A stretch of DNA of 33,732 nt from Betaproteobacteria bacterium RIFCSPLOWO2_12_FULL_62_13 (GCA_001771985.1 MERG01000017.1:1-33732), one strand, 5' to 3'; positions 7,159-30,951 are shown, counted from the first letter of the stretch. Notes: generated by a model not told the origin, from the letters alone. A program made the numbers and translations.

Positions 7159-7284
7159 GCACGGCTATCGGAATAGAACATATGCCGTGCAGAAGCTTGC
7201 GCCAGCAGTGCTTCCGAAGTGGGGCAGTGCCGCCCCAGAGCGGCCGGCCCCAGCGCCACCTTCTCAGACAATTGGGGGTCGTCC

Positions 7285-9279: not shown

Positions 9280-10614
9280 GTGTCCGCCGACTCGTTCCAG
9301 CCGCTCCATCTCCTCGCCATCAACCTGACGCGGCGCTGCAACCTCGCTTGCGCCCATTGCTACCTGGATGCCGACGCGTTGCGCAGCGGCGCGCGCGACG
9401 AGCTCACAACCGCCGAAGTCCGTAACGTGATCGAAGAGCTCGCGAGCCGCAGTGCGGAGACCATGGTCGTCCTCACCGGCGGCGAGCCGCTATTGCGGCG
9501 CGATCTCGAACAGATCATCGCCTGCGGCGCCGAGCGCGGTCTGGCCATGGTCGTCGGCACTAACGCCACGTTGCTCAGCGAGCGGCGCGCGCGCTCGCTC
9601 AAGCAGGCCGGCGCGCTGGGGCTCGGAATCAGCGTGGATTCGCTCGACGCCGGCTATCACGACCGCTTTCGCGGCTCGCCTGGCGCCTGGCGCAGGACGA
9701 TGGCCGGCATCGACGCGGCGCGCCGCGCGGGCCTCTCGTTTCAGATTCATTTCTCCGTCAGCGAAGGAAATGCGCACGAGTTGCCGGCGATGATCGGGTT
9801 CGCCCGCGCGGCGGGTTCGAGAGCGCTCAACGTGTTCTTTCTCGTGTGCACGGGCCGCGGCGAATCGGTGATCGACCTCTCGCCGCTGCGCTACGAGCAG
9901 GTGCTGAAGGAACTGATCGAAGCGCAGGAACGCTGCCCGGAAATCATCATCCGGCCGCGTTGCGCGCCGCACTTCAAACGCGTCGCCTTTCAGCGCAATC
10001 CCGATTCGGCCCTGAATCGCATCAGCGGCAGGGAGGGCGACGGGTGCATCGCCGGGGTCCATTACTGCCGCATCACGCCAGAGGGCGGGGTCACGGCGTG
10101 TCCCTACGTCGAAGGCGAACAGGGTAACGTGCGCAGCCGGCCGTTCCTGGAGATCTGGGACCACGGCGCGGACTTCCAGCGCCTGCGCTCGCCCGAGCTG
10201 CGCGGCAAGTGCGGGGTCTGCGAGTTCCGGGCGTTGTGCGGTGGCTGCCGTGCGCGTCCCCTCGCTCAAGGCGGTGACATCATGGATGCCGATTCCATGT
10301 GCGCCTATGCGCCGCGGGGCGGAACGCTCATCGCGCCGCTGGGCGCGCGCGCGCTACACGACCTGAACTGGAGTCCAGAAGCCGAGAAGTGCTTGCAGCG
10401 TGTGCCGGCATTTCTGCGCGGCTTGGTCAGGAAGCGCGCCGAAGCGTATGTCGCCGGCCTGGGCCAAGACACCGTGCTCCCCGATCACCTTTCGCAGCTC
10501 GCTGCTAGGCGGTTTGGAGGGGGCGGCCCCACGCCGCCCGAGCGTTTTCCTGCGCGAAGCAGCGCGCCGCATCTCGAGGAGCGCGAGCCCCTCGAGCCGG
10601 GAGCGGGGCCATGA
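9280..10614 (+). CDS. Radical SAM/SPASM protein, NirJ/AhbD-like, with C-terminal PCP_red-like domain
   Basis: 'NLTRRCNLACAHCY' CxxxCxxC; C-terminal 'GCIAGVHYCRITPEGGVTACPY...GKCGVCEFRALCGGCRAR...MCAY' as in heme d1/alternative heme biosynthesis radical SAM enzymes; then 'LNWSPEAEKCLQRVPAFLRGLVRKRAEAYV'. GTG start. Confidence 0.88.
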   Translation: MSADSFQPLHLLAINLTRRCNLACAHCYLDADALRSGARDELTTAEVRNVIEELASRSAETMVVLTGGEPLLRRDLEQIIACGAERGLAMVVGTNATLLSERRARSLKQAGALGLGISVDSLDAGYHDRFRGSPGAWRRTMAGIDAARRAGLSFQIHFSVSEGNAHELPAMIGFARAAGSRALNVFFLVCTGRGESVIDLSPLRYEQVLKELIEAQERCPEIIIRPRCAPHFKRVAFQRNPDSALNRISGREGDGCIAGVHYCRITPEGGVTACPYVEGEQGNVRSRPFLEIWDHGADFQRLRSPELRGKCGVCEFRALCGGCRARPLAQGGDIMDADSMCAYAPRGGTLIAPLGARALHDLNWSPEAEKCLQRVPAFLRGLVRKRAEAYVAGLGQDTVLPDHLSQLAARRFGGGGPTPPERFPARSSAPHLEEREPLEPGAGP

Positions 10615-12071
10615 TCGGGACGGCGCGCACGCAGCGCGTGCCCGGTGACGCCGCGGACGTGGATGTTCTGGTGGTTGGCGGCGGCATCTCTGGCTTGGCA
10701 ACGGCCTGGTGGTTACAGCGCGAAGGGATCACCGTAGAGCTGTGGGAGCGCGACGCCCGCCCCGGCGGAAAGATCCGCACCGATGCGGCTGGAGGCTACG
10801 TGAGCGAGCGGGCGGCCGCGCTGATGATGAATTTCCGCCCCGAGGTGACGCAGTTACTCGCCGAGAGCGGTCTGGACGCAGCGAAAGCACCGCGTTCGGC
10901 CGGCGCGGCCCGCCGCTACCTCGTGGAGCAGGGGCGCCTCGTTGCAGTGCCGACAGCGATGGGCGCAATGCTCGGCTCGCCGCTATGGAGCGCGCGCGGC
11001 AGGCTGCGCGTGCTCCTGGAACCCTTCGTTCCGAGAGGCGGGCATGCCGGCGAGACGGTGAGCGAATTCGTCAGCAGGCGGCTTGGGCGCGAGCTGCTCG
11101 AAAAAGCGATGGAGCCGTTCATCGCAGGGCCGCTGGCTTCGGACCCGGATCGGGCGGAGGCGCGCGCCACGCTGCCGCGCCTGAAGGCGCTGGAGCAGCG
11201 TTACGGGAGCATCGCGGCGGGGGTGCTCGTTCACAAGCTCCTCGGGCGCCGTACGGCGCATCCCACCGAGACTTTCTCGTTCGAGGGCGGCATGGCGACG
11301 CTGATCCGGGTACTCGCCGCGACACCCGGAGTCCGCCTACGCGCCGGGAGGGCTGCAACCGGCTTGGAGCCGCGTGCAAGCACGTGGCGCGTGACGGGTT
11401 GCGGTGCGCAAGGCGAATGCGCGGTGTCGGCCCGGCACGTGGTGCTGGGCGTTCCGGCATCCGCAGCCGCGCAGCTGCTCGTGCCGGTCGACAGGGAACT
11501 GGCCGGGCTGCTTCGCGGTATCGAGTATGCGCCGCTCGTCGTCGTGCACCTGGGACTGCCTCGCCCGGCGATCGAGCATCCGCTCGACGGCGCGGGATTT
11601 CTCGTGCCGCGCCGCGAGGGCCTGCCCCTCAACGGCAACTTGTGGATGAGCTCGCTCTTTCCCGGCCGCGCACCGGAGGGATACGCGCTTCTCACCTCGT
11701 ATCTCGGCGGTGCGCGCCGGCCGCAGGCGTTCGACTGGGACGAGGAGCGCGCGATCTCGACCGTGCTCGCAACACTGAAGCCACTGTTGAACATCGGGGG
11801 AACGCCGGCGATCGCGCGAATCCACCGGCACCGCTACGCGTTGCCGCTCTATCACGGGGACTATCTCGGACGGCTTGCGGCGATCGATGCGCGTCTTTCT
11901 CCGCTGCCGGGCCTGCATCTCGTGGCGAATTACCGCGGGGGCGTGTCGGTACGCGACCGCATCGCTTGCGGGCGGGCGGCCGCCGGCAGCATCGCCACGG
12001 CGCTCGGCAAGCGGCCAAGCGCGACGGTCGACGCGCAGAGCAGTCCCGCCCTGGGCGCCGCAACCGCTTGA
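10611..12071 (+). CDS. hemY: Protoporphyrinogen/coproporphyrinogen oxidase, HemY-type FAD protein
   Basis: 'VDVLVVGGGISGLATAWWLQREGITVELWERDARPGGKIRT' Rossmann/FAD motif; overall HemY-like ('FIAGPLASDPDRAEARATLPRL'; 'YRGGVSVRDRIACGRAAA'). ATGA overlap with the preceding gene. Confidence 0.85.
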   Translation: MIGTARTQRVPGDAADVDVLVVGGGISGLATAWWLQREGITVELWERDARPGGKIRTDAAGGYVSERAAALMMNFRPEVTQLLAESGLDAAKAPRSAGAARRYLVEQGRLVAVPTAMGAMLGSPLWSARGRLRVLLEPFVPRGGHAGETVSEFVSRRLGRELLEKAMEPFIAGPLASDPDRAEARATLPRLKALEQRYGSIAAGVLVHKLLGRRTAHPTETFSFEGGMATLIRVLAATPGVRLRAGRAATGLEPRASTWRVTGCGAQGECAVSARHVVLGVPASAAAQLLVPVDRELAGLLRGIEYAPLVVVHLGLPRPAIEHPLDGAGFLVPRREGLPLNGNLWMSSLFPGRAPEGYALLTSYLGGARRPQAFDWDEERAISTVLATLKPLLNIGGTPAIARIHRHRYALPLYHGDYLGRLAAIDARLSPLPGLHLVANYRGGVSVRDRIACGRAAAGSIATALGKRPSATVDAQSSPALGAATA

Positions 12072-14345: not shown

Positions 14346-14351
14346 GACCCC

Positions 14352-14981: not shown

Positions 14982-15040
14982 TAACCGATAGAAGGATTTT
15001 CCCGAGTTATTGCCACGAATGAAAGAAAAGGGAGACGGAA

Positions 15041-15823
15041 TTGGTGACAGCCCGCAAGCGAACGGTAGGAACTTTTTTAGCGTTGACATTGACTGCGGTG
15101 GCCCCCGTTGCCGGCGCGGCATATACCGAGCAGGCCGTGGCGAAGGGCGGCAGCATCAGCGGCAAAGTGACTTTCCAGGGAGTACTCCCCGCGGACGCGG
15201 TGGAAAAGATCACGATCACCAAGAATCCCGAGGTCTGCGACGAGGACAAGACCGGTTATCGCGAAGTGGTCTGGGTCGATGTCAAGGACGGCGCATTGCG
15301 CGGCGCTTTCGTGTTCATCGACAAGATCGACGCCGGCAAGAAGTGGCCCGCGCCCAAGGCCGCCAAGTATGTGGTCGACCAGAAGGGCTGCCGGTTCCGT
15401 CCCTGGGCGCAGGTAATGAAGAGCGGCCCGCTCACGATCAAGCACAGCGATCCGGCGACGGTGCTGCACAACATCAACGCGCGCGAAATGATCGGCGTGG
15501 AGAAGAACCGGATTGTCAGGCGCACCATCTTCAACTTCGCCCAGCCCGACCCGGGCGAGATCGTCAAGGAGCTGAGGACGCAGCGCTCGCATTACGTATC
15601 CCTCAACTGCGAAGCGCACAACTTCATGTTCGGTTTCATGATGGCCCCCGAGCACCCCTACGCCGTGGTCGTCAACGAAGACGGTTCGTACACGCTCGAC
15701 GATGTGCCGCCCGGGGACTACACGGTCCTCGCCTGGCATCCCAGGTTCGGACTCAAGGAAGCGAAGGTCACCGTGCCCCCAGGCGGCAAGGCGCAGGCCA
15801 GCTTCACTTTCTCGGCCAAATGA
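15041..15823 (+). CDS. Exported cupredoxin-like/carboxypeptidase-regulatory-like protein
   Basis: Signal peptide; 'GGSISGKVTFQG', H-rich 'VLHNINAR', 'SLNCEAHNFMFGFMMAPEHPYAVVVNEDGSYTLDDVPPGDYTVLAWHP' with possible Cu ligands C-x2-H-x2-M. Start TTG 15041 or GTG 15044. Confidence 0.75.
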   Translation: MVTARKRTVGTFLALTLTAVAPVAGAAYTEQAVAKGGSISGKVTFQGVLPADAVEKITITKNPEVCDEDKTGYREVVWVDVKDGALRGAFVFIDKIDAGKKWPAPKAAKYVVDQKGCRFRPWAQVMKSGPLTIKHSDPATVLHNINAREMIGVEKNRIVRRTIFNFAQPDPGEIVKELRTQRSHYVSLNCEAHNFMFGFMMAPEHPYAVVVNEDGSYTLDDVPPGDYTVLAWHPRFGLKEAKVTVPPGGKAQASFTFSAK

Positions 15824-15852
15824 TTCGGCGAACGTCCAAGGAGGCGTTACGT

Positions 15853-17010
15853 ATGAGCACATCGACAAGATCCGCTTCGTTGCTGTGGTTGGCCGTTACG
15901 GGCGCGGCAGCGGCGGCCCTCATGGGCATGTCCGGACTTTCCTGTGCCCAGGGCTTCCCGGCGATCGGTCCGCTGCCGGCCAAGAAGGCGCCCAATCCAG
16001 GGCAGGTGGAGATGGGCCGGCGGCTGTTTTTCGATCCGCGCATCTCGGGCGATGGCGCGATCAGCTGCGCGAGCTGCCACGATCCGAAGCAGGGATTCAC
16101 GAGGCAGGTGGATAACAAGGGCAAGCCGCAGGCGCTGTCGGACGCCTATCCCGGCACGAGCCATTTCCGCAACTCGCCCACGCTCATCAATACCACTTAC
16201 AAGGCGGGCTTCGCGAATGCCGGCTGGGGCTGGGCCGGGCACATGGGCGCGGACCTGAACGACGTGGTGCGGGACATGCTCACCGAGACCCTGGTGATGA
16301 ACATGGACATGCGTCTCATGCACGAGCGCATGAAGCAGGACCCGGTGTACGTGAAGATGTGCCAGGAGAGTTTCAAGGGCGAGTGCAGCTCTGGCAAGGC
16401 GCGTAGCGCCCTGGTGGCCTTCATGGACACCCTCGTCTCCAGGGATGCGCCGTTCGACACTGGCAAGATGTCCGACGAGGCGAAGCGCGGACGGGGGCTC
16501 TTCGAAGGCAAGGCGGGCTGCATCGCGTGCCATAACGGGCCGTACTTCTCCGACGCCGAGCCGCACAACACGGGCGTGCCGGAGAACATGGAAGTCTTCA
16601 AGGACCCCGTGCGGCACCTGACTTACCGTGCAGCGATGTCCAATCACGGTGTGCCCAGGACCGAAATCTGGCGGCGCGACGTGGGCTATTTCCTCGCGAG
16701 CAAGAACTACGCCGACGTCGGTAAGTTCATCACGCCGACCTTGAGGGAACTCAAGTACACCGCGCCGTACATGCATAACGGCGTCTTCAGCACGCTGGCG
16801 GAAGTGGTCGATTTCTACGACCGAGGCGGCGGCCGCGACGATCCGCTGGCGGCGGAACTGAAGCCACTGGGGCTCAGCGCGGAGGAAAAGAAGGATCTGA
16901 TCGCCTTCCTCGAAAGCCTGAGCAGCACCGCCCCGGTGACAGTCCAGCCGGTGGCGGACATTCCCAAAGAGTACGCACCGATCAAGAACTTTCTGGGCGC
17001 GCACAACTAA
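15853..17010 (+). CDS. Di-heme cytochrome c peroxidase/MauG-like protein (idrP1/P2-like)
   Basis: Signal peptide; CASCH and CIACH; 'GRRLFFDPRISGDGAISCASCHDPKQGFT', 'TPTLRELKYTAPYMHNGVFSTLAEVVDFYDRGGG'. AAGGAGG RBS at ~15839. Confidence 0.92.
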   Translation: MSTSTRSASLLWLAVTGAAAAALMGMSGLSCAQGFPAIGPLPAKKAPNPGQVEMGRRLFFDPRISGDGAISCASCHDPKQGFTRQVDNKGKPQALSDAYPGTSHFRNSPTLINTTYKAGFANAGWGWAGHMGADLNDVVRDMLTETLVMNMDMRLMHERMKQDPVYVKMCQESFKGECSSGKARSALVAFMDTLVSRDAPFDTGKMSDEAKRGRGLFEGKAGCIACHNGPYFSDAEPHNTGVPENMEVFKDPVRHLTYRAAMSNHGVPRTEIWRRDVGYFLASKNYADVGKFITPTLRELKYTAPYMHNGVFSTLAEVVDFYDRGGGRDDPLAAELKPLGLSAEEKKDLIAFLESLSSTAPVTVQPVADIPKEYAPIKNFLGAHN

Positions 17011-17026
17011 GCATGGAGGTCGAACG

Positions 17027-18244
17027 ATGAGACCGAGCAATGTAGCACTGTATCTGCCGGTGCTTCTGATGTGCGGATTTTTGGCCGCGGGCGCGGCGAA
17101 CGTGCTGGCCGCGGGGGATCCGCCGCGGCTGGCGCCGCTGCCGCCGGTGCCGGAGCCCTCCGACAACAAGACGACCAAGGCGAAGGCCGAGCTCGGCAGG
17201 CTCCTGTTCTTCGATCCCAAGATCACCGGCGATGCGAGCCTCTCCTGCGGTGACTGCCACGTACCGAGGCAGGGCTGGGGTTTGGCCGATCCGATCTCCC
17301 GCGGCTATCCGGGTACCGTCCACTGGCGCAACTCCCAGACTGTGGTGAATACCGCCTACCTCGCGAAGCTCTTCTGGCAAGGCGATGCCGGAAGCCTCGA
17401 GGCCCAGGCCGAGGCGGCGAACACCGGCGCGGTCGCCGGCAACGGCTCGAACGACGTCATGGAGGCCAGGCTGCGCCAGACCCCGGAATATATCAAGCGC
17501 TTCAGGGAGGCCTTCGGCACCGAGCGGCCGCTCATCAACGACGCGTGGTACGCGATCGCCGCCTTCGAGCGGGCCGAGCTCATCCAGAAGGACAACCCCT
17601 TGGACCGCTATCTGACGGGCGACAAGAACGCGCTGTCGGCGAAAGCGGTCAAGGGAAAGCAGCTCTTCGAGGGCAAGGCCAACTGCATCCAGTGCCACAA
17701 CGGCCCCATGCTCACGGACGAGAAGTACTACAACCTGGGCGTGCCGCGGCCGAAGGAGTTCGAGGAGACAGGGCTCAACCAGGTCACCTATCGCTGGGAG
17801 ATCTACCAGAAGGGGCTCCACGAGCAGCGCTACCGGCAATGGAAGGATGATCCGGGGCTTTATCACACCACCGCGTGGGTGCGGGATGCCGGCAAGCACC
17901 GCACCGCGCCCCTTCGCTACATCAAGTACACCGCGCCCTACATGCACGCGGGGCAGTTCTTCACCCTGGAAGAAGTCATCGACTTCTACGACAAGGGCGG
18001 CGGCGAGAACGAGTTCACCAAGCGCTACGGCAACAAGACCAGGATCCTGAAGCCCTTGAATCTGACCAAGGACGAGAAGGAGGCGCTGATAGCGTTTCTC
18101 GAAGAGCTGAGCGGTGAGGAGATCAAGATGGCGGTTCCCAAGGTGCCATCGTACGCGGTGAAGCCCGACGTACCCGGGCTGACGCAGGCGCAAGCGAAGC
18201 GCATCGGCCTCGAGAGGCATCTCCCCGCAATTGGGAAGAAATAA
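17027..18244 (+). CDS. Di-heme cytochrome c peroxidase/MauG-like protein (idrP1/P2-like), second copy
   Basis: CGDCH and CIQCH; 'GRLLFFDPKITGDASLSCGDCHVPRQGW', 'YIKYTAPYMHAGQFFTLEEVIDFYDKGGG'. Confidence 0.92.
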   Translation: MRPSNVALYLPVLLMCGFLAAGAANVLAAGDPPRLAPLPPVPEPSDNKTTKAKAELGRLLFFDPKITGDASLSCGDCHVPRQGWGLADPISRGYPGTVHWRNSQTVVNTAYLAKLFWQGDAGSLEAQAEAANTGAVAGNGSNDVMEARLRQTPEYIKRFREAFGTERPLINDAWYAIAAFERAELIQKDNPLDRYLTGDKNALSAKAVKGKQLFEGKANCIQCHNGPMLTDEKYYNLGVPRPKEFEETGLNQVTYRWEIYQKGLHEQRYRQWKDDPGLYHTTAWVRDAGKHRTAPLRYIKYTAPYMHAGQFFTLEEVIDFYDKGGGENEFTKRYGNKTRILKPLNLTKDEKEALIAFLEELSGEEIKMAVPKVPSYAVKPDVPGLTQAQAKRIGLERHLPAIGKK

Positions 18245-18254
18245 GGAGTTTCAA

Positions 18255-18812
18255 ATGGCTACGTGCAAGAACGACAGCGGTTTTCAGGGCGCCTGCATGA
18301 CGCGCAGGGCCTTCCTGTTCCGCAGCGGCGCTGCGGCGGTGGGAACGGTCGCGCTTCCGAGCCTTGCCGGGTTCGAGGGCAAGGCGCTCGCCGCGCAGGT
18401 GGCGCGCTACCCGAGAATGAAGATCGGCAAGCTGAGCCAACTGGTCAAGGACAAGCCGGTGCTCTTCAACTACCCGGACAAGGGCGCGGGTTCGCAGAGC
18501 CTGCTCGTCAAGCTCGGTGTTCCCGCGGGCGGCGGCATCGGTCCCGAGGGCGACGTGGTCGCCTTCAACTCCCAGTGCACGCACATGGGCGCGCCGATGG
18601 GCGGGAATTACCAGCCCGCGCACCAGGCGCTCGGGCCATGCGCGTTCCATCAGACCACGTTCGACCTCACGCGGCACGGCATGGTTATTGCGGGCCACGC
18701 GACGGAAAGCCTGCCGCAGGTGCTGCTGGAGCTGAAAGGCGATGACATCTACGCGGCGGGAATGCTCGGGCTCATCTACGGCCGCTATGACAACCTGAAG
18801 ACAAAGGCATAG
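18255..18812 (+). CDS. idrB: Rieske [2Fe-2S] small subunit of AioB/IdrB type with Tat signal
   Basis: 'MTRRAFLFRSGAAAVGTVALPSLAGF' Tat signal; Rieske ligands 'CTHMGAPMGG...GPCAFHQTTFDL'; lies directly upstream of the Mo subunit. RBS AAGGAG at 18243. Confidence 0.85.
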   Translation: MATCKNDSGFQGACMTRRAFLFRSGAAAVGTVALPSLAGFEGKALAAQVARYPRMKIGKLSQLVKDKPVLFNYPDKGAGSQSLLVKLGVPAGGGIGPEGDVVAFNSQCTHMGAPMGGNYQPAHQALGPCAFHQTTFDLTRHGMVIAGHATESLPQVLLELKGDDIYAAGMLGLIYGRYDNLKTKA

Positions 18813-18823
18813 GAGGACTAGCG

Positions 18824-21517
18824 ATGGCTGCGAAACATTCAACACCGTTCTATCAGCCGCCGGACAAGGTACCCCTTCCTCCGGCCAATGCCGAGACCTT
18901 CACCACGTGCTGCGACTACTGCGTCGTGGCTTGTGGCTTCAAAGTGTTCCGCTGGCCGGCAGGCAGTCCGGACGGCGGCCCGAAGAAGAACCAGAATGCC
19001 CTCAAGCGGGACTATCCGTTGGGCCCGCTGGCCGCTGGCTGGGTGGGGCCCAACCAGTACACCCAGGCGTTTTTCAACGGCAAGCTCTACAACATCGCCG
19101 TGGTCGCCGACCCGGATGCCAAGGTCGTGAACGTCGGCGGCACCCACAGCATCCGCGGCGGTTGCATCGCGCAGAAGGTGTACAACCCGCAGAAACCGAC
19201 GCAGGACCGGCTGCTCCATCCCATGGTCCGCGTCAACGACATCCTGATGCCGGTGACCTGGGACTTCGCGCTGGACATCGCCGCGGAAGTGTCCAAGCAC
19301 GTGATCGCGCAGCACGGCGAAGAAGCCTGGGCGCTGAAGTACTACAGCTACCAGTTCTTCGAGAACACCTATGCGCTCTCGAAACTCGCGCTGAAGAGCA
19401 TCGGCACGCCGGCGATCGCCGAGCACGACCATCCCTCCAAGGTGGACGCGGCGCCCGGCTGGACGGATATCGGCTACGACATCTTCAGCGCCGCCTACGA
19501 GGATTTCGCGCTGGCGGACTGCATCCTGGTTTCCGGGACCGATCCCTTCGAGACCAAGTCGAACCTGTGGGAGTACTGGTTCCTGAAGGGGATCCGCGAG
19601 AACAAGACCAAGCTCATCATGGTCAATCCGCGCAAGACGAGCGGTTTGGCGTACGCCGAAAAGCACGGCGGCCTGCACATCGACGTCGTGCCCGGCTCGG
19701 ACACGCCGGTTCACATGGCGATCGCCAGGGTGATCCTGGAGAATGGCTGGGAGGACAAGGAGTTCATCAAGAACTGGGTGAACAACTTCTGGGAAACTGA
19801 CTCCGGCTTCGGCCGGGGAACGCGCAACACGCCTTGGCAGTGGCGCACGATCTGGGGCATGTTCCAGGTGAACGGCTTCGACGACTGGAAGAAGTGGCTG
19901 CTCGCGCAGGAGGAGTCCAGGCCCGAAGTGGCGGCGAAAATCGCGGCGATCGATCCGAAGAAGATCTACCAAGCAGCCGAAATGATGGCCAAGCCCAAGC
20001 CGAACGGCGAGCGCGTCAAGACCACGATCTGCATGGAGAAAGGTAACTACTGGTCGAACAACTATCTCAATACCGCCTCCATCGGCAACCTGGGCGTGAT
20101 CCTTGGCTGCGGAGGGAAACCCGGGCAGGTCATCACCCGCTTGGGCGGCCACCAGCGCGGCGGCTCGACGGGCGGCCCGTACCCCGGCATGAAGTCGCCG
20201 TACAAGGTGCCGGGCAGGCGGCGCCTCGAGCTGGACGTGGATCGCTGGTTGGAGTCCGGCCACATGCACTTCGCTTATGTCGTCGGCACGACCTGGATCC
20301 AGTCGATGGCCGGATCTTCGGCGCTGGAAGATGCGTTCAAACGCTACGTGAAGCTCAACCCGCACCAGGTGAGGACCCTCAACAAGCAGGCGATCATCGC
20401 GACGCTGAAGAAGCGTGTGGATGGCGGCGGGCTGGTGGTGGTGAACCAGGACATCTACCTGCGCAACCCAATCGGCAACCAGTACGCCGACATCGTGCTG
20501 CCCGCCGCGACCTGGGGCGAAGAAGACTTCGTCCGGGCGAACGGCGAACGGCGCATGCGACTGTATTCCAAGTTCTACGACGCGCCTGGAGAAGCGCTGC
20601 CCGACTGGAAGATCGTCGCCATGCTCGGGCAAAAGATGGGCTTCGAGGGCTACGACTGGAAGGACGCGAACGAAGTTTTTGAAGAAACTTGCCGGTTCTC
20701 GCGCGGCTCGCGCAAGGACTACAACGCCATCCGCGTGATCGCCCGGCGCAAGGGAATGCGCGCGCACGACTTTCTGCGCGCCTACGGCACGACGGGGTTG
20801 CAGGCGCCGCTGCTGATCGACGGCGACGCGATCATCGAGACCAAGCGGCTGCACGACTACAACCGCAAGGACATCCCGGAAACAGGCCCGGAAGGCGCGA
20901 CCATGCACAACAAGCGCTTGCTCGCGTTCAACACCCAGACGGGCAAGCTCAACTTGCTGAAGACACCGTGGAAGTACTGGTCGGACTTCTACGCGTTCAT
21001 GCAGCCCAAGGGCGACGAGCTGTGGGTCACCAACGGGCGCATCAACGAGATCTGGGAATCCGGTTTCGACGACTACGCGCGGCGGCCGTACACGCAGCAG
21101 CGCTGGCCGGTGAACTTCGTCGAGATCCACCCCGAGGACGCCCGGGCGCGAGGCATCGAGTCGGGCGACTGGGTGGTCGTCGAATCCGACCGGGTGCCGG
21201 TGCAGACGGACCTCAACCTGGGCGTGAAGGACGGCGAGATGTGGTTCGACGGTCTGATGAAACGCGGCCACATCAAGCTCGCCTCCGGGCAGTTCTCGGC
21301 GGTGGCGATCGTGACCCCGGCGATCAAGAAGGGCGTCGCCTTCACGAACTTCCTGCACGAGAATTCTCCGGCCAACGCCATTACGCCGAGGGTTCCGGAC
21401 CCGATCAGCCAGAACTACCGCTTCAAGCTCGCGCACGCGACCATCATGAAGATCGGCGAATCGGGGTACAAGCGAAGCTTCGCCCAGATGAGCTTCAAGA
21501 GGAGAGACATCGCCTGA
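18824..21517 (+). CDS. idrA: Molybdopterin oxidoreductase large subunit, AioA/IdrA clade (putative iodate reductase-like)
   Basis: 897 aa; CxxCxxxC 'TTCCDYCVVACGFKVFRWPAG' as in AioA/IdrA [3Fe-4S] proteins; DMSO reductase family features ('GNLGVILGCGGKPGQVITRLGGHQRGGS', 'NQYADIVLPAATWGEEDFVRANGERRMRL'). idr rather than aio assignment rests on the two adjacent di-heme peroxidases. Confidence 0.8.
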   Translation: MAAKHSTPFYQPPDKVPLPPANAETFTTCCDYCVVACGFKVFRWPAGSPDGGPKKNQNALKRDYPLGPLAAGWVGPNQYTQAFFNGKLYNIAVVADPDAKVVNVGGTHSIRGGCIAQKVYNPQKPTQDRLLHPMVRVNDILMPVTWDFALDIAAEVSKHVIAQHGEEAWALKYYSYQFFENTYALSKLALKSIGTPAIAEHDHPSKVDAAPGWTDIGYDIFSAAYEDFALADCILVSGTDPFETKSNLWEYWFLKGIRENKTKLIMVNPRKTSGLAYAEKHGGLHIDVVPGSDTPVHMAIARVILENGWEDKEFIKNWVNNFWETDSGFGRGTRNTPWQWRTIWGMFQVNGFDDWKKWLLAQEESRPEVAAKIAAIDPKKIYQAAEMMAKPKPNGERVKTTICMEKGNYWSNNYLNTASIGNLGVILGCGGKPGQVITRLGGHQRGGSTGGPYPGMKSPYKVPGRRRLELDVDRWLESGHMHFAYVVGTTWIQSMAGSSALEDAFKRYVKLNPHQVRTLNKQAIIATLKKRVDGGGLVVVNQDIYLRNPIGNQYADIVLPAATWGEEDFVRANGERRMRLYSKFYDAPGEALPDWKIVAMLGQKMGFEGYDWKDANEVFEETCRFSRGSRKDYNAIRVIARRKGMRAHDFLRAYGTTGLQAPLLIDGDAIIETKRLHDYNRKDIPETGPEGATMHNKRLLAFNTQTGKLNLLKTPWKYWSDFYAFMQPKGDELWVTNGRINEIWESGFDDYARRPYTQQRWPVNFVEIHPEDARARGIESGDWVVVESDRVPVQTDLNLGVKDGEMWFDGLMKRGHIKLASGQFSAVAIVTPAIKKGVAFTNFLHENSPANAITPRVPDPISQNYRFKLAHATIMKIGESGYKRSFAQMSFKRRDIA

Positions 21518-21548: not shown

Positions 21549-23744
21549 GTGAAGCGGGCCATGTCGCTTTCCCACGCAAGCGTTCAATCCGGGGTGCTTG
21601 GCGCAACGGACGCAGCCGGCCCCGGCGCCCGGGCCCGGGTCGTCGAGGCGCTTCGCGGCGCGCTCGCGAGCGACAGCGCAGTGACGCGGTGCTCGGCCGT
21701 GAGGGCGCTGGAAAGGCTGGATTGCCGCGACGGGAGACCGGCGCAAGAGCTCATCGGGCTGCTGCGCGACCCGGATCCCGACGTCCGGGCGGACGCCGCC
21801 GCCGCGCTCGGGCGCATGCGGGTTGCGGAAGCGACCGGGGCGCTGATCGAAAACCTCGAGCGCGATCCGGAAGGCGAGGTGCGCAGCGAAGCAGCCAAAG
21901 CGCTCGGCCGGATCGGCTCGCGCACCGCCGTCGAGCCGTTGATCAGCTGCTTCAAGGCGAAGGGCTATCCCGAGCTCGACCACTTTGCGGGGAACATCGG
22001 GTTTGGACCCTGGTGGGAAGTCCAGCGCCAGGCGCTCGCCGCGCTCGGCGAGATCGGCGATGAGCGGGCCGCTCAGCCCGTGATCGAGGCGCTCGCCGAC
22101 GACGACTCCGAGGACCTGCAGGAAACCGCTTTCAGGGTGCTGGCCCGGCTGAACGGCACGCAGGCGAAGGCGCTGCTGATCGGGCAGTTGAAAACGGGCA
22201 ACCGGCAGGCGCGGCGGCGCGCCGCGAGGTTCCTTGCGGCGTTGTCCGAGCTGCGCGGGGTGCGCGCCGGCTTTCCCCCCGAATTCATTCCGCCGTTGCT
22301 CGATGCACTGCTCGACCCGGAGGCAGCGGTGCGAATCGAGGCGGCCCGCGCACTGGCGGCAAGCGGCGAGCCGACGGCGCTGGTGCCGCTCACTCTGTTA
22401 CTCGGCGACCCGGAGGCTGAGGTGCGCAGGGAAGTTGTCTCGCTGCTCGCTGCAATGCGCGACGAACGCGTGCTCAAGCGGCTCCATGCGCTGCTGGGCG
22501 AACCGGATCCGGCATTGAAGCGCAGCGTCGCACGCGTGCTCGGAGACATCGGCGATGCGCGTTCGGCCGCTCCGTTGAGCGCGCTGCTCGAAACCGGGGA
22601 CGCGGACCTGCTCTACGAGATCGTCTGCGCGCTCGGAAAGATCGCTCGCCCGGGTGCGGAAGAAAAACTTGCCGTAATCCTGGCGGACGCAAAGGCGCAT
22701 CACCCGGTTCGCGTCCAGGCAGCCCGGGCGCTCGGTCGCATGCGCGGGAAGGGCGGCCCCGAGCGGCTCGCGCGCTGCGTTTTCGACGCGGATGAACGGG
22801 TCGCGCATGCGGCGCTCTGTGCGCTCGCCGAAATGGATCCCGAAGGCGCGCCCGCGAGGCTTGCGGATCTGCTCGAAGCGACTGCACCCGCGCAGGATTC
22901 GAGCGGGGCAAGCGTTCCGCCGCGAACCGAGGTCCCGCGCGAACTGCAGGACATGGTCGCCGGCCAGAGCGCCCGGACGTCGACCCTCGCTGCCATTTTT
23001 TTCGCACGCAGCGAGGGCGCCGCGCAACCTGGCGCGGCCTCACCCGAGCCGCGGCCGGCGTTTGCAAACGGGGCGCGCGTTCTGGCGGTGCGGCTGCTGG
23101 GCGAATGCGCGAGCCCTGGGGCGCGGGCGATCGAGGCTTTGGAGAAGGCGTGCCGGTCGAGCGACGGCGCGCTGCGCAGGGAGGCGCTGCTCGCCCTCGG
23201 GCGCATCGGCGGTCGGCAGGGGCTTGGCGCACTGCTCTCTGGGCTCGAGGACGAGGCACGCGAAGTGAGGCTCGCGGCGCTCGAGGGGCTCTGCGGCCTG
23301 CACGACGTGCCCGACATCGCCGGGCGGCTCGCCGCGCTGTGCGAGGACGCCGACCCGGACGTGCGCGCTCGGGCGGTTGAGGCGCTTGCGGCGGCCGGGG
23401 GACCCGAGGCGGCGCCGCGCCTGGCGCGCGCCCTGGAGGACGAGCGCATGGAGGTGTGTCGCGCGGCGCTCAACGCCCTGACCGGCGAGACCTACACGCC
23501 GGAATGCCGAGCAGCGGTCGTGAACCTGATGTTCCGGTTCTCAGGCGAGCTGCGCTTTGAAGCGGCTGCGACCCTGAGGCGGCTGAACGATTTCGCGCCG
23601 GCTCTGTGGTTGCTCGCTACCCTCGACGACGCCGGGAAGGAAGAGGTGCACTGGATCTGCATCGACGCCTTGGCCGAGATGCATGCTGCCACGTCCACGA
23701 TGGCCTCTGGCGTCGCGCGGGCGGTGACGGAGGGCGGACGATGA
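21549..23744 (+). CDS. HEAT-repeat (PBS-lyase HEAT-like) protein
   Basis: Many repeats such as 'LLRDPDPDVRADAAAALGRM', 'LLGDPEAEVRREVVSLLAAM', 'LCEDADPDVRARAVEALAAAGG'. ATGA overlap with the next gene; alternative ATG at 21561. Confidence 0.9.
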   Translation: MKRAMSLSHASVQSGVLGATDAAGPGARARVVEALRGALASDSAVTRCSAVRALERLDCRDGRPAQELIGLLRDPDPDVRADAAAALGRMRVAEATGALIENLERDPEGEVRSEAAKALGRIGSRTAVEPLISCFKAKGYPELDHFAGNIGFGPWWEVQRQALAALGEIGDERAAQPVIEALADDDSEDLQETAFRVLARLNGTQAKALLIGQLKTGNRQARRRAARFLAALSELRGVRAGFPPEFIPPLLDALLDPEAAVRIEAARALAASGEPTALVPLTLLLGDPEAEVRREVVSLLAAMRDERVLKRLHALLGEPDPALKRSVARVLGDIGDARSAAPLSALLETGDADLLYEIVCALGKIARPGAEEKLAVILADAKAHHPVRVQAARALGRMRGKGGPERLARCVFDADERVAHAALCALAEMDPEGAPARLADLLEATAPAQDSSGASVPPRTEVPRELQDMVAGQSARTSTLAAIFFARSEGAAQPGAASPEPRPAFANGARVLAVRLLGECASPGARAIEALEKACRSSDGALRREALLALGRIGGRQGLGALLSGLEDEAREVRLAALEGLCGLHDVPDIAGRLAALCEDADPDVRARAVEALAAAGGPEAAPRLARALEDERMEVCRAALNALTGETYTPECRAAVVNLMFRFSGELRFEAAATLRRLNDFAPALWLLATLDDAGKEEVHWICIDALAEMHAATSTMASGVARAVTEGGR

Positions 23745-25888
23745 TCCGGATGCTCAGCCGCTTTGTCAGACCGCGCGCCGGGCTCGCCGCCCTGCTCCTC
23801 ATGGTGCTCGCTGTGTCCACCACGTACGCGCTCGAGCCCAACGAGTACCGCCAGGTCCTCGACCTCGATTCGAGGAAGCTCATCTGGTTTCTCGCGCAGG
23901 TCAAGCTCTTTTTCGCCGCGTTCGTGCTCGGCGTGCCGCTGTTTGCCGTCACCATTGAGTTCGTGGGCTGGCGCACGAATGACCGGAAGTACGACAAGCT
24001 CGCCTACGAGTTCACGAGCCTGCTGAGCGTCGCCTACGCGACCACCGCTGCGCTTGGCGGCCTGCTCGCTTTTGCGCTGTTCGCGCTGTACCCCACCTTC
24101 ATGGGCTACATGACGGGCGTCTTCCGGGACGTGATGTTCCTCTATGCGCTGCTCTTCTTCGCCGAGACCTTCACGCTGTACTTCTACTACTACGGCTGGA
24201 ACTGGCTCGCGAGCCGGGAGCCGTTCAGCAGGAACGTCCAGTGGGTCTTCAAGGGCCTCGGCATCGCGGTCCTCATCCTGACCGCCGTGTTCTTCCTCGG
24301 CGGCTTCGGCCCGAAGATGCGCGGGGATACGCGCGCGTTCATGGCCCTGCTCTACCTGCTTCCGGTAGGGGCGGGGCTCCTTATCATCCGCGACTGGAAA
24401 GGCGTGCACATTTTCATCGGCATCCTGCTCAACGTCGCCGGCACCGCGATCATGCAGGTCGCCAACAGCTGGGCCGGCTTCATGATGAGCCCCGCGGGCG
24501 TCGACAAGGAGGGCGTGCCGACCGGCACCGTGTGGCAGGCGTTCGAGAACGTGCTCGCGACGCCGGTGGCGATCCACCGCATGCTCGGCAACATGGCCTT
24601 CGGCGGGCTGGTCGCCGGGGCCTACGCGGCGGTGAAATTCATCGGCGCGCGAAGCGAGGACGAGAAGGCGCACTACGACTGGATGGGCTACGTCGCCAAC
24701 TTCGTCGCCATCAGCGCGCTCATTCCGCTGCCGTTCGCCGGTTACTACCTCGGCCGCGAGGTCTACTCGACGAGCGCGGTCATGGGCAACAACATGATGG
24801 GTGGAGACTTCTCCTGGACCTTCATCATTCAGGCGATCCTCGTAGGGTCGCTCTTTGTCATCAGCAACTACTACCTGTGGACGGGGATGACGCGCATCCC
24901 GGGCGCCGAGCGTTACTACGGCTACATCAAATACATCCTCGCCGCGCTAATCGTGTCGTTCGCCATCTGGCTCACGCCGCACAACCTGCCGCTCACCGGC
25001 ACCGAGGTCGGCCAGATGGGCGGAAGCCAGTATCACCCGACGCTGAAGTTCATGGGGCTGATGCCGGCGAAGAATGCGGTCATCAACCTGATCATCCTGT
25101 CGACCTTCTTCAGCTTCCTGCTCTATCGCCGGGGCAACAAGACCGATGCGGTCGCGATCAGCGCGCAGGGTTGGATGCCGAAGATCGTGATCGCGCTCGC
25201 GGGGCTTGTGGCCGTCTATCTCTCCGGCCAGTACGTGGCGGCGCTGTTCACGATGAAGCCGGCGGAGCTCGATCTTCCCGCCGACCGCGCGCCCTACTTC
25301 CACACTGTCGGTTATCTGCTGCTTGCGCACTGCGCCGCGGCCCTCGTCGCGGTGGCGCTGGCGCTGAAGGACCGGGGCAAGCTTGCGCAGAACTTGTACA
25401 TGGGGGTCACGGCGTTCAACGTGGTCATCTTCCTGGGAGTGTACGGTTTCGTGGTGATGGAGCAGGCCTCGCCGTTCCTTCGCAACATCGCGGTGAGCCA
25501 GTTCCTGCAAATCATCGCCTGTCTCGTGCTGGTCACGGCGATCGACGTGTTCCTGTTCCGCGGGGCGAAGGAGATCGGCAGGCTCCAGTGGGGCAAGATC
25601 CCGCTGCGCAGCCAGTACGCGCTGCTGCTCCTCACCTTCGTCATCACCATGAACATGGGGTTGATGGGCTTCATCCGCTCCGGGTTGCGCGGCGACTGGC
25701 ACATCTTCGGCGTGATGCGCGACACTTCGCAGTGGTCCTACACGCCGAGCAACTTCACCATGACGCAGATGGTGAGCCTGTCGGTGCTCGTGTTCATGGT
25801 GAGCATCGCGTTCATGTTCTGGCTCGGCGGCATCGCCGGCAAGCAGAAGGCCGCCCCGGGCGCAGCGCAGGAAGCGGCCGATGTCTAG
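23741..25888 (+). CDS. CydA-like (cytochrome bd subunit I-like) membrane protein, copy 1
   Basis: Polytopic; 'LAQVKLFFAAFVLGVPLFAVTIEFVGW' aligns with CydA helix I; 'VQVANSWAGFMMSPAGV'-type and 'IHRMLGNMAFGGLVAGAYAAVKF' segments match CydA. Confidence 0.85.
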   Translation: MIRMLSRFVRPRAGLAALLLMVLAVSTTYALEPNEYRQVLDLDSRKLIWFLAQVKLFFAAFVLGVPLFAVTIEFVGWRTNDRKYDKLAYEFTSLLSVAYATTAALGGLLAFALFALYPTFMGYMTGVFRDVMFLYALLFFAETFTLYFYYYGWNWLASREPFSRNVQWVFKGLGIAVLILTAVFFLGGFGPKMRGDTRAFMALLYLLPVGAGLLIIRDWKGVHIFIGILLNVAGTAIMQVANSWAGFMMSPAGVDKEGVPTGTVWQAFENVLATPVAIHRMLGNMAFGGLVAGAYAAVKFIGARSEDEKAHYDWMGYVANFVAISALIPLPFAGYYLGREVYSTSAVMGNNMMGGDFSWTFIIQAILVGSLFVISNYYLWTGMTRIPGAERYYGYIKYILAALIVSFAIWLTPHNLPLTGTEVGQMGGSQYHPTLKFMGLMPAKNAVINLIILSTFFSFLLYRRGNKTDAVAISAQGWMPKIVIALAGLVAVYLSGQYVAALFTMKPAELDLPADRAPYFHTVGYLLLAHCAAALVAVALALKDRGKLAQNLYMGVTAFNVVIFLGVYGFVVMEQASPFLRNIAVSQFLQIIACLVLVTAIDVFLFRGAKEIGRLQWGKIPLRSQYALLLLTFVITMNMGLMGFIRSGLRGDWHIFGVMRDTSQWSYTPSNFTMTQMVSLSVLVFMVSIAFMFWLGGIAGKQKAAPGAAQEAADV

Positions 25889-26858
25889 CGCGATCGCCAA
25901 GGTCTTCGGCTTCCTGCTTCTCGTGCTCGGCACGTTCCTGTGGATCGGGCAGGCGGTCACCGCGCTCACCGGCGGCGAGAAGGCGGCCGCGGGCGCGGGC
26001 GCGGTGGAAATCACTCCGGAAGGCGGCGAGACGATCTTTTGGGGTAGGGGCCGCTGCTTCACCTGCCACAGCATGGGCGACCGGGGCAGCGCCGTGCGCG
26101 GCCCCAACCAGGGCGTGTTCGGCGACAAGTTCCCGCTGCCGATCGGTGCGCGCGCCGCCGAGCGCGCGAAGGAGCGCTCGCAGAAGACGGGCCAGGCGTA
26201 CACGGCGACAGACTACCTGGTCGAGAGCCTCGCCGAGCCGGGCGCGTACGTGGTCGAGGGCTACAAGAACGAAATGGCCATCGTCTATGCCCCGCCGATC
26301 GCGCTCAGCGTGAAGGAGGTCAAGGCGGTGATCAGCTACCTGCAGAGCCAGGGCGGAGAACTCGACCTCGAGGCGCTCGAAAAGCCGAGCGAGGTCGCGA
26401 AAAAATTCTTCGCCAAGATGGCCGCGGCGCAGGCGGCAGGCGGCGGCGATCCGAGCGCGGGCGAGCAGGTGTACGCCGACAACTGCGCAAGCTGCCACGC
26501 CATCAGGGGCAAGGGCGGCAAGACCGGCCCGGAGCTCTCGGCGATCGCAGCCAAGGGCGTCCGGTTCATCGAGGAATCGATCCTGCGGCCGGCGAAGTCC
26601 ATCACGCCGGGCTTCGAGACCTACTCGGTCATCGAAAAGGACGGGCGCAAGACGGTCGGACTGAAGACCAGGGACGGCGCGACCGAAGTCGAGATCACCA
26701 AAGCGACCGGCGAGAAAGTGACCATTGCCAAGGCCGACATCAAGGAAATCGAGCAGGACAAGGACGCGAGCGTGATGCCGGACAACCTGAACGAGGCGAT
26801 GACCGTGAAGGACCTGCAGGACGTGCTCGCCTACATGATGCTGCAAAAGAGCCAATGA
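25881..26858 (+). CDS. Membrane-anchored di-heme cytochrome c
   Basis: N-terminal TM; CFTCH and CASCH; 'GEQVYADNCASCHAIRGKGGKTGPELSAIAAKG'. Confidence 0.9.
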   Translation: MSSAIAKVFGFLLLVLGTFLWIGQAVTALTGGEKAAAGAGAVEITPEGGETIFWGRGRCFTCHSMGDRGSAVRGPNQGVFGDKFPLPIGARAAERAKERSQKTGQAYTATDYLVESLAEPGAYVVEGYKNEMAIVYAPPIALSVKEVKAVISYLQSQGGELDLEALEKPSEVAKKFFAKMAAAQAAGGGDPSAGEQVYADNCASCHAIRGKGGKTGPELSAIAAKGVRFIEESILRPAKSITPGFETYSVIEKDGRKTVGLKTRDGATEVEITKATGEKVTIAKADIKEIEQDKDASVMPDNLNEAMTVKDLQDVLAYMMLQKSQ

Positions 26859-27838
26859 GCGGAGGCGGCGGCGTGCTGAGGCGGAGGATCAACCGGTTCT
26901 GGACGACGGTGGCGGCGCTCGCCGTCATCTACGCGCTCGTGAGGTGGGGCATACCGGTGGCCTCGCGGCAGATCACCGGCATGCCCTTCCCGCTCCCGGT
27001 GCCGGGCGCGCTGGTGTTCATCTACATGACGCTGGCGGTGGTCGCGCTCGCTATCCTCGTGACGTTTTCCGACGAGCATCTGGACGAGTTCGTGCGGCCA
27101 GTGAAGGCGTTCCTGCGCGGTGAGCACGGCAGGCTGCCGCGGACGGTGGTGCTCGTCGCCGTTCCCCTGCTCGTGGGCTGGCAGGTCTGGGGCGTCACGG
27201 CGCCCGAGGTCGCGGTGCCGGCCGCGCTGCGCATCCAGCATCCGTCGTCTAACTTCCCGAAGAGCTTCGAGACGCTCAAGAACCCGCTCGCCAACCCGAG
27301 CGACGCCGACGTCCAGGCGTTCGTCGAGCAAGCGAAGGCGAACGCGGTGGCGTTCATTCCGCAGGTCGCGGCCGACGTGAAGCGCTGGCGCGAAGCGAAC
27401 GCGGACAAGCATCCGCTTGACTTCATTCCGACCGCGCCGATGAAGAAGTTCGTCGCGGCGCTGAAGGCGGGCGCGGTGGATCCGCAGACGGGCAGGGCGG
27501 CGCTCGTCGAGAAGTACCTATTCGAAGGTCGCGCGCTCTATGCGATGAACTGCCGGGCCTGCCACGGCGACAGCACGGGCGGCGACGGTCCGATGGCAGA
27601 CGGCTTCAAGCTGCGCCCGATCAACTTCACCGATAGCGGCACCATCGAAACCATCGTTGAGGGCTACACCTTCTGGCGCGTGACGAACGGCGGCCCGGGG
27701 TTGCCCACCGAGGCGACGCCATGGGACTCGGCGATGCCGGAGTGGAAGCTGAGCCTCACGGAAGGGGAACGCTGGAAGATCATCCTGGCGGAGTACGACC
27801 TGGCGCAGAAGACGCCGCGCATTCCGGAGCAGCACTGA
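26855..27838 (+). CDS. Membrane-anchored mono-heme cytochrome c
   Basis: Two N-terminal TM segments; 'YLFEGRALYAMNCRACHGDSTGGDGPMADGF'. ATGA overlap with previous gene. Confidence 0.9.
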   Translation: MSGGGGVLRRRINRFWTTVAALAVIYALVRWGIPVASRQITGMPFPLPVPGALVFIYMTLAVVALAILVTFSDEHLDEFVRPVKAFLRGEHGRLPRTVVLVAVPLLVGWQVWGVTAPEVAVPAALRIQHPSSNFPKSFETLKNPLANPSDADVQAFVEQAKANAVAFIPQVAADVKRWREANADKHPLDFIPTAPMKKFVAALKAGAVDPQTGRAALVEKYLFEGRALYAMNCRACHGDSTGGDGPMADGFKLRPINFTDSGTIETIVEGYTFWRVTNGGPGLPTEATPWDSAMPEWKLSLTEGERWKIILAEYDLAQKTPRIPEQH

Positions 27839-27839: not shown

Positions 27840-29486
27840 ATGACCGCGCGCCGAAGCACGAAAACACTCGCGCTCGGCGCGGCCGCGGCGCTCGCCCTAG
27901 CGCTCGCGGCGGGCGCGCACGCCACCGACCGGCCGTCGAAATCGAAACCCGCCGTGACGCCCGAGCTTCTCGAGCAGGGCAGCGCCGTCTACTTCAGGCG
28001 CTGCAGCTTCTGCCACGGCCTCATAGGCGACGGCGATGGGCCGGCGGCGGAGTTCCTCGATCCGCGGCCGCGCGATTTCACGCTCGGCACCTACAAGTTC
28101 CGCACCACGGAGAGCGGCAAACTGCCGACCGACGAGGACCTCTTCCGCACGGTGAGCCGCGGCCTACCCGGCACCGCAATGCAGGCGTTCGACAACGAGG
28201 TGATCAAGAATGGGCTCACCGAGGATGAACGGTGGGCGGTGATCGCCTACATCAAGACGTTCGCGCGCGAATTCAAGGACCCCGCATTCGACCCCTACAA
28301 GCAGGTCATCGCGCTGCCGAAGAACCTGCCGGCGATGAGCGAGGCGACCATCGCGAAAGGCAAGGAGGTCTTCGAACACGCCAAGTGCTGGGAGTGCCAC
28401 GGCAAACAGGGGCGCGGCGACGGACAGAAGGCGTTCGACCGCACCGACGACTGGGGCTTCCCGATCCGCATCCGCAACGTGACGCACCCGTGGAAGATCA
28501 AGGGCGGCACGGCGGTCGAGGACATCTACATGCGGTTCACGACCGGCATCAACGGCACGCCGATGCCTTCGTTCGTCGAGGGGGTCAAGAAGGAAGAGGA
28601 CCGCTGGTACCTCGCCGCCTACATCAAGTCGCTGCAGCACAAGCTGACCGAGCACCAGGTGCTGAAACCGCAGCGCGCCGAGGGCGAGGTTCCGTCGGCG
28701 CCGGAGGACGCGGCGTGGGCAAAGGCCCAGCCGATGGACATGCGGCTCGCGGGTCAGGTGGTGGCGCCGCCGCGCTGGCAGAACCCGAGCGTCGAACTCG
28801 CCACGGTGCGGGGGGTGGCGAACGACAAGGAGATCGCGTTCCTCGTGCAATGGGACGATCCGTTCAAGGACGCGATCCACAAGGAGGACCAGGAGTTCGA
28901 CCCGAAGGACATCGCCAAGGTCGGCGCGTACAACTCTTACGTCGATCCGTACAAGATGGTGCCGCGCAAGCTCGAGACGTTCCGCGATGCGGTGGCGCTC
29001 CAATTCCCGGTCAAGCTTCCCGAAGGCACCAAGAGGCCGCACTTCCTGCGGGGCGACGCGTCCAATCCGGTTCACCTGTGGGTGTGGAAGGCCGACTTGG
29101 AAGAGCAAGGCAAGCGCTCGGCCGAGGAGGCGATCGCGCGCGGCTGGAAGCAGCCCGCCAAGGCGCTGCCCGACAAGCAACAGCTGGTGAGCGGCAAGGC
29201 GCAGTGGAAGGAAGGCCGCTGGAGCGTGGTCATGAAACGCGCGCTCGTCACCGGCGACGGCTCCGGCGTGCAGTTTGTTCCCGGCGCGTTCATTCCCATG
29301 TCGATCAACGTCTGGGACGGCTCGAACGGCGAGCACGGCCTGCTGATGGCCGTGTCGACGTGGCACTACGTGTTCCTAGAGGCGCCCACGCCGATGCGGG
29401 TGTACGGCTATACCGGTTTTTCGGTGCTGCTCACCGGCGTCCTGGGTTTCGGGCTGATGAGGAAAGCGCAAAGGAGTGAATCATGA
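27840..29486 (+). CDS. Di-heme cytochrome c fused to ethylbenzene dehydrogenase gamma/NxrC-like heme-binding domain, C-terminal TM
   Basis: CSFCH and CWECH in the N-terminal half; C-terminal half 'PMDMRLAGQVVAPPRWQNPSVELATVRGVANDKEIAFLVQWDD...FIPMSINVWDGSNGEHGLLMAVSTWHYVFLE' resembles EB_dh; TM tail 'TGFSVLLTGVLGFGLMRKAQ'. Confidence 0.85.
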   Translation: MTARRSTKTLALGAAAALALALAAGAHATDRPSKSKPAVTPELLEQGSAVYFRRCSFCHGLIGDGDGPAAEFLDPRPRDFTLGTYKFRTTESGKLPTDEDLFRTVSRGLPGTAMQAFDNEVIKNGLTEDERWAVIAYIKTFAREFKDPAFDPYKQVIALPKNLPAMSEATIAKGKEVFEHAKCWECHGKQGRGDGQKAFDRTDDWGFPIRIRNVTHPWKIKGGTAVEDIYMRFTTGINGTPMPSFVEGVKKEEDRWYLAAYIKSLQHKLTEHQVLKPQRAEGEVPSAPEDAAWAKAQPMDMRLAGQVVAPPRWQNPSVELATVRGVANDKEIAFLVQWDDPFKDAIHKEDQEFDPKDIAKVGAYNSYVDPYKMVPRKLETFRDAVALQFPVKLPEGTKRPHFLRGDASNPVHLWVWKADLEEQGKRSAEEAIARGWKQPAKALPDKQQLVSGKAQWKEGRWSVVMKRALVTGDGSGVQFVPGAFIPMSINVWDGSNGEHGLLMAVSTWHYVFLEAPTPMRVYGYTGFSVLLTGVLGFGLMRKAQRSES

Positions 29487-30811: not shown

Positions 30812-30823
30812 AGGAGGCCGGAC

Positions 30824-30940: not shown

Positions 30941-30951
30941 AAGGGGCGCGC

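Follow-up and report, generated by a model that had tools for sequence, protein, structure and literature searches.

An idr gene set joined to a bd-like cytochrome module in a groundwater betaproteobacterium

Gene content and organization

In this study, an iodate reductase-like (idr) gene set and its surroundings were investigated in a 33,732-nucleotide stretch of DNA (hereafter the window), which lies on contig C17 of the 5.88-Mb assembly of Betaproteobacteria bacterium RIFCSPLOWO2_12_FULL_62_13, a groundwater-type betaproteobacterium with a genus mate (L033, contig coordinates identical to G003) that is likewise titled Betaproteobacteria from groundwater. A preliminary description had placed a cupredoxin-like gene (here cbx), two di-heme peroxidases (P1 and P2), a Rieske subunit exported by the twin-arginine (Tat) pathway (IdrB) and a molybdenum (Mo) subunit of the AioA/IdrA type (IdrA) at positions 15041-21517. 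We observed all these genes on the plus strand at those positions, where Pfam and NCBIfam agree with the assignments, and they are not chance open reading frames because the identical order cbx-P-P-B-A recurs in dozens of genomes in the locus comparison. The genes were therefore rightly named, but the boundary was drawn too short: from 15041 to 30540 there are 12 genes with intergenic gaps of -14 to +35 nt, and the apparent operon reaches at least 30540. After a gap of about 258 nt follow bd2 and its partner cytochrome, and the linked genes reach 33593. The added part, a HEAT-repeat protein followed by a module of two cytochrome bd-like membrane proteins (bd1 and bd2), c-type cytochromes and an EB_dh cytochrome, continues the idr core almost without gaps. 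The earlier remark that the downstream genes make the context non-standard thus holds, and the module is the more interesting half of that observation.

The two di-heme peroxidase genes are contiguous with idrBA, and the order P-P-B-A is the canonical idr order. IdrA scored 372.4 bits against a cut-off of 359.05 (TIGR02693, arsenite_ox_L) and IdrB 115.6 bits against 95.65 (TIGR02694, arsenite_ox_S) in NCBIfam; these arsenite oxidase models match because IdrAB lie in that superfamily and no Idr model was among the matches. IdrA has no evident signal peptide and carries the 3Fe-4S motif C30-X2-C33-X3-C37 with S109 (spacer to Ser of 71), while IdrB displays the Tat motif TRRAFL followed by the Rieske ligands CTH-X18-CAFH, in agreement with the fit to the AioA/IdrA group noted before. 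The C-terminus of cbx is carboxypeptidase-regulatory-like according to Pfam; a cupredoxin fold is predicted (model pLDDT 92; Foldseek to amicyanin/plastocyanin, prob 1.0), H143, C190, H193 and M196 are invariant in the alignment, and the protein probably binds copper. Both P1 and P2 also match MauG/MbnH models, every score being below the curated cut-off, and their PYMH motif resembles that of MbnH (6e1c) and of bacterial peroxidases. A MauG-like role was not adopted for them, given the sub-cut-off matches and the motif.

Within the window clade, the order cbx-P-P-B-A-HEAT-bd1-c-c-EBdh-c-c is retained with small variations in beta-, gamma- and alphaproteobacteria. The HEAT protein lies directly 3' of idrA in most loci, whether bare or module-bearing; its sequence is poorly conserved (about 25-45%) and its role is perhaps assembly or scaffolding. 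bd1 belongs to the cytochrome bd superfamily, as indicated by PF01654, the PDB profile 5doq (E 2e-15) and Foldseek (cytochrome bd-II, E 7.5e-6), and its N-terminal helices align with CydA. His57, as found in relatives, and His281 fall at about the heme-ligand positions H19 and H186 of CydA, respectively. Residue 57 of bd1 (window 23903-23905) is Lys in the window and in the genus mate L027 and His in every other bd1 or bd2 aligned; this loss of the CydA-H19-type His is a warning that bd1 and bd2 may have different roles. In the EB_dh protein, two heme c motifs lie at the N-terminus, and the C-terminus holds a hydrophobic segment that is likely transmembrane. A second, diverged module copy (HemY, radical SAM, UspPCP, EB_dh, cytochromes and a bd2 59% identical) was seen in the window's own assembly at 627-11269 of L185 (G000:C190), ending at the contig end; it could be a paralogue or contamination, the assembly being 7.6% contaminated.

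Phylogeny and pocket residues of IdrA

IdrA relatives were drawn from plasmids, the host order and named genomes and arranged in two trees, one of 98 rows and one of 48 rows with the longest AioA branches omitted. In both, the window IdrA fell inside the Idr clade (support 100 and 100/100), the branch to AioA measuring about 1.8-1.9 changes per site, and paired with that of L033. Its clade comprises Acidiferrobacteraceae, Arenicellales, other gamma- and alphaproteobacteria, Planctomycetota and others; the neighbours are an alphaproteobacterial/roseobacter clade and, further off, a Rhodocyclales-type clade, whose loci are laid out as in DN11. Iodate reduction has been shown in groups on both neighbouring sides (PMC8692401, PMC10149662, PMC11445184), and in these trees the window lineage is bracketed by iodate-reducing groups, a bracketing by group and not by the reference sequences of SCT, IR-12 and DN11.

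At all eight diagnostic sites (S175, Y176, D202, D240, Y409, R445, M495 and H677) the window IdrA has the Idr state, while AioA and Idr share H201, R439, H443 and the 3Fe-4S motif. The pocket Glu of the arsenite site (E203 of A. faecalis) is present in 8/8 AioA, is replaced by A209 in the window, and does not appear in the residue listing of 90 Idr rows. Position 209 and its neighbours vary inside the IdrA clade, and at the sites checked the window pocket is indistinguishable from that of other Idr lineages. Identity to AioA is only about 25-30%. Judged by tree and residues, the window locus is idr and not aio. The preliminary description had favoured the same identity and had proposed both comparisons as checks, naming a firm placement inside AioA as one refuting outcome; the window IdrA lies outside it, and the pocket comparison leads the same way.

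Beyond the window, an unannotated P-P-B-A set was detected on a Vibrio (THAF190c) megaplasmid (L023, 12247-17679; IdrA 54% identical to that of the window). On an Azonexus hydrophilus plasmid (L024, 12113-30904), an idr set is followed by TnsA, TnsD and IS21 genes, which suggests carriage by a Tn7-like element. One genome (G200) has two different idr sets on separate contigs (L128, L129).

Distribution and transfer of the module

In a sample of 400 genomes of the host order, bd1 relatives at least 50% identical were found in 3 genomes, all with idrA, and in 0 of the 394 without idrA (p about 1e-4, own genome left out). Relatives of about 40% identity occurred in four genomes of the order, three of which (G125, G380 and G418) have an adjoining alpha/beta pair resembling type II nitrite oxidoreductase (NXR), together with UspPCP (universal-stress-protein and PCP_red domains) and HemY. 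In the loci of these three (L144 at 12991-19839, L143 and L145), the NXR-like type II Mo enzyme is Tat-exported and bd2-type proteins lie next to it; the genomes are possibly unrecognised nitrite oxidizers or relatives of such.

A bd-like relative was found in 36 of the 59 idr genomes chosen. Full-length bd1 (73-86% identical) is present in 16 window-clade genomes (L033-L046, L051 and the window's own), L055 excepted; in the L047 and L055 genomes idr is present and no bd-like protein was detected. No bd-like relative was found in the roseobacter/Stappiaceae genomes tested, nor in G137, G275 and G284, and no bd1 relative in the plasmid collection. In L061, L063 and L095, the bd1-c-c-EBdh part nests with L051 inside the window-clade modules (100/100), the L061 module being 64-70% identical to them, whereas the IdrA of these three lies in the alphaproteobacterial clade with 57-61% identity to window-clade IdrA. 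Since the module nests in the window clade and the IdrA does not, the module was by these trees transferred onto a second IdrA lineage, grafted at the equivalent place, and its docking beside idr is thus a repeated one. RuBisCO was present in 13 of 34 module genomes against 4 of 22 bare ones, which is not significant (p=0.14), and none was found in the window's own genome; it was dropped as a sign of lithotrophy.

Regulatory and heme-synthesis-like genes

Upstream of the idr core, a sensor histidine kinase and a sigma-54-dependent response regulator match the pair lying directly upstream of idr in the Azonexus plasmid (L024), G137, G275 and G284 (regulator identities in Table 1). The sensor part of the kinase (N-terminal 401 aa) is idr-specific in the order sample: relatives at least 50% identical occur in 5 of 6 idrA genomes and in 0 of 394 others, and the next-best matches are mostly partial and at most 43% identical. 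Iodate induces idr in cultured iodate reducers, and this induction, taken with the restriction of the sensor to idrA genomes, gives the strongest indirect hint of a response of the window locus to iodate; it points to such a response but is not a proof.

Between regulator and core lies a trio at 7219-12071 (the Usp/PCP_red protein, an AhbD/NirJ-like radical SAM protein with PCP_red, and HemY), which accompanies idr and partly NXR-like loci; the UspPCP gene itself accompanies many idr loci and the NXR-like loci. The trio may supply a special heme to the bd-like complex.

Table 1. Genes of the window, with coordinates, strand and basis of assignment
Feature	Coordinates	Strand	Basis
Sensor histidine kinase (dCache-like sensor, HAMP), idr-type	2948..5020	+	Pfam; relatives directly upstream of canonical idr
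Sigma-54-dependent response regulator, idr-type	5013..6398	+	Pfam; 63-66% identical to canonical idr regulator
Universal-stress-protein domains and three PCP_red domains (UspPCP)	7219..9261	+	Pfam
Radical SAM/SPASM protein near AhbD/NirJ (heme synthesis type), with PCP_red	9280..10614	+	Below equivalog cut-offs
HemY-type protoporphyrinogen oxidase	10611..12071	+	TIGR00562, 222 bits against cut-off 97.85
cbx, predicted periplasmic cupredoxin with CarboxypepD_reg domain	15041..15823	+	Pfam, alignment, model, Foldseek
P1, IdrP-type di-heme peroxidase	15853 (best start)..17010	+	CCP_MauG E 3e-31; two CxxCH
P2, IdrP-type di-heme peroxidase	17027..18244	+	CCP_MauG E 1e-36; two CxxCH
IdrB, Tat-exported Rieske subunit	18255 or 18297 (start)..18812	+	TIGR02694 over cut-off; CXHX18CX2H
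IdrA, Mo-bisMGD catalytic subunit with 3Fe-4S cluster, 897 aa	18824..21517	+	TIGR02693; trees; residues
HEAT-repeat protein	21549..23744	+	Pfam
bd1, bd-like (CydA-superfamily) membrane protein	23735..25888	+	PF01654; 5doq; Foldseek
c-type cytochrome, 2 CxxCH	25881..26858	+	Motif count
c-type cytochrome, N-terminal hydrophobic segments, 1 CxxCH	26855..27838	+	Motif count
EB_dh (heme-b gamma type) protein, alt-NxrC_2-like	27840..29486	+	Pfam EB_dh 2e-21; TIGR03477 below cut-off
c-type cytochrome, 2 CxxCH	29483..30139	+	Motif count
c-type cytochrome, 1 CxxCH	30175..30540	+	Motif count, locus comparison
bd2, second bd-like membrane protein, start codon uncertain	30799..32778	+	46% identical to bd1
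c-type cytochrome, 2 CxxCH, paired with bd2	32775..33593	+	Motif count, locus comparison

Discussion

With reference to the known systems, the window resembles IdrABP1P2 of Pseudomonas sp. SCT, Denitromonas sp. IR-12 and Azoarcus sp. DN11 in gene set and P-P-B-A order (PMC8692401, PMC10149662). Its IdrB has the Rieske spacing CXHX18CX2H of DN11 IdrB, a sigma-54 kinase/regulator pair lies nearby in an arrangement like that of DN11 (PMC10149662), and IdrA has the 3Fe-4S cluster and lacks a signal peptide as known IdrA does, with a Ser spacer of 71 here and 70 in DN11. The paired peroxidases, read earlier as a mark of idr loci, are part of a set that matches loci of demonstrated iodate reducers or of organisms closely related to them. 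The differences are that IdrA is about 50-52% identical to Rhodocyclales-type relatives, and that a cupredoxin upstream and the HEAT protein with the bd-like/cytochrome module downstream are present, none of which was reported as conserved in PMC8692401 and PMC10149662; the surroundings of idrABP1P2 are described as poorly conserved (PMC8692401). From arsenite oxidase AioBA (PDB 8cff, 4aay, 1g8k), with which IdrAB share fold family, 3Fe-4S motif, Rieske subunit and H201/R439/H443, the window IdrA differs by an identity of about 27%, the replaced pocket Glu and the Idr-type diagnostic residues.

The module itself recalls the NXR neighbourhood of Nitrospira, Nitrospina and Kuenenia, which holds a bd-like protein and a second copy, membrane cytochromes c, alt-NxrC_2 and cupredoxins (PMC3578206, PMC6606698). 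In the window, too, a bd-like protein is accompanied by a second copy, by c-type cytochromes of the membrane, by a cupredoxin-like protein and by an NxrC-type EB_dh protein that has two heme c motifs and a likely transmembrane helix; the CydA-superfamily protein, c-type cytochromes and EB_dh/NxrC-like heme protein of an NXR-type module are all there. It differs in its Mo enzyme, IdrA of the AioA/IdrA family standing in place of a type II NXR, and in its di-heme peroxidases and HEAT protein. The bd-like proteins called OR-N are thought to accept electrons from cytochrome c and are putative cytochrome c-dependent O2 reductases (PMC10839748); other proposals make bd-like proteins a route for reverse electron flow (PMC3578206, PMC6606698), and in manganese lithotrophs they are candidate terminal oxidases. 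bd1 and bd2 resemble OR-N CydAA' (PMC10839748, PMC12342949) in the CydA-superfamily N-terminus, paired paralogues and cytochrome c partners, a likeness at superfamily level only, and bd1 of the window genus differs in having no His equivalent to CydA H19.

On balance we incline to the view that the window holds a periplasmic iodate reductase locus whose module links Idr to the membrane respiratory chain. IdrB would be Tat-exported together with IdrA and would pass electrons to the Mo site of IdrA, which would reduce iodate to hypoiodous acid (HIO) or iodide, while P1 and P2 would remove by-product H2O2 as in the published model (PMC8692401). Iodate is the probable substrate and reduction the probable direction, and the HIO and H2O2 steps are suggested by analogy with cultured iodate reducers. 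The cupredoxin, the two bd-like proteins, the five c-type cytochromes and the EB_dh cytochrome would presumably form one membrane complex, through which the respiratory chain would exchange electrons with the same periplasmic carriers as supply Idr. The cell could then switch between O2 and iodate, both competing for the same electrons, which fits the oxygen-limited electron-sink role of iodate proposed for marine aerobes (PMC11445184). The genome holds several heme-copper oxidases, so that the module is not its sole candidate terminal oxidase.

Several points weigh against this view. No cultured iodate reducer was met among the module-bearing lineages, those cultured-type iodate reducers that were tested do not need the module, and in NXR systems such a module accompanies a Mo enzyme working oxidatively. 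A near-invariant heme-ligand His is lost in bd1 (K57) of this genus, and bd1 may therefore have a different chemistry. The module also occurs in two Nitrospinota genomes (G519 and G524) in which idrA was not detected, which means that it is not strictly tied to Idr. These genomes hold a two-bd module with cupredoxins (L184 at 4334-16323 in G524, and L183 in G519). An NXR-like query gave no match in Nitrospinota, in a search that had no positive control and is thus uninformative.

The Nitrospinota case would also suit a module that merely neighbours idr, as an independent respiratory island placed beside it by chance or through common regulation, and in some genomes its parts do flank idr or lie on different contigs. 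However, the same order from cbx through c-c with near-zero gaps across alpha-, beta- and gammaproteobacteria, and the grafting of the module at an equivalent position in a second IdrA lineage, make this reading improbable. Still less credit can be given to an arsenite oxidase (Aio) locus, although NCBIfam calls both subunits 'arsenate reductase (azurin)' and AioA is the closest enzyme with known structure: the low identity, the fully supported position outside AioA, the missing Glu, the eight Idr-type sites and the two peroxidases leave hardly any room for it, and we regard this identity as ruled out by trees and pocket residues.

The substrate and direction deserve more weight. An Idr-like enzyme for another oxyanion (e.g. 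bromate, chlorate or selenate), or a promiscuous oxyanion reductase, is unlikely but a serious candidate, as the module-bearing clade as a whole is known from sequence alone, position 209 and its neighbours vary within the IdrA clade, and iodine is scarce in many groundwaters; against it stand the position between groups of proven iodate reducers, the conserved P1P2 and the idr-specific sensor kinase. Rather unlikely, in our estimation, is that Idr of the module-bearing lineages oxidizes iodide to HIO or iodate and sends electrons through cytochrome and cupredoxin carriers to the bd-like complex, and from there to O2 and/or into reverse electron flow, as has been proposed of NXR in Nitrospira. 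Such a direction would suit the NXR-type architecture of Mo enzyme, cytochromes, bd-like protein, EB_dh and cupredoxin, the bd2-type protein, UspPCP and HemY that three genomes of the order have next to an NXR-like type II enzyme, the candidate oxidases of manganese lithotrophs, and the lack of the module in the cultured-type iodate reducers tested. Yet at an IO3-/I- potential of about +0.67 V at pH 7 (our own estimate) little energy is left, RuBisCO is neither significantly enriched nor present in the own genome, the window regulator is of the type found beside canonical iodate reductases, and the IdrA pocket cannot be told from that of other lineages at the checked sites.

Conclusions

With its idr core, the window adds a new member to a known family. 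As far as the open literature searched can show, the combined idr/module operon is undescribed, no description having been found there, with subscription journals mostly not covered. In one large IdrA lineage spread over several phyla, a fixed 12-gene order links the iodate reductase with a respiratory module that has otherwise been described from bacteria oxidizing nitrite or manganese, and it offers an electron path for iodate respiration that is concrete and can be tested. A further question is whether some Idr systems run oxidatively, and it becomes testable whether organisms of this kind only reduce iodate or also produce it. In the iodine chemistry of the ocean, biological oxidation of iodide to iodate is an open problem; if iodide oxidation were true of these lineages, they would be lithotrophic or co-metabolic iodate producers and would supply the biological iodide-oxidizing step that the iodine cycle still lacks. 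The value of idrA as an iodate-reduction marker is affected as well, because bare and module-bearing idr may differ in function.

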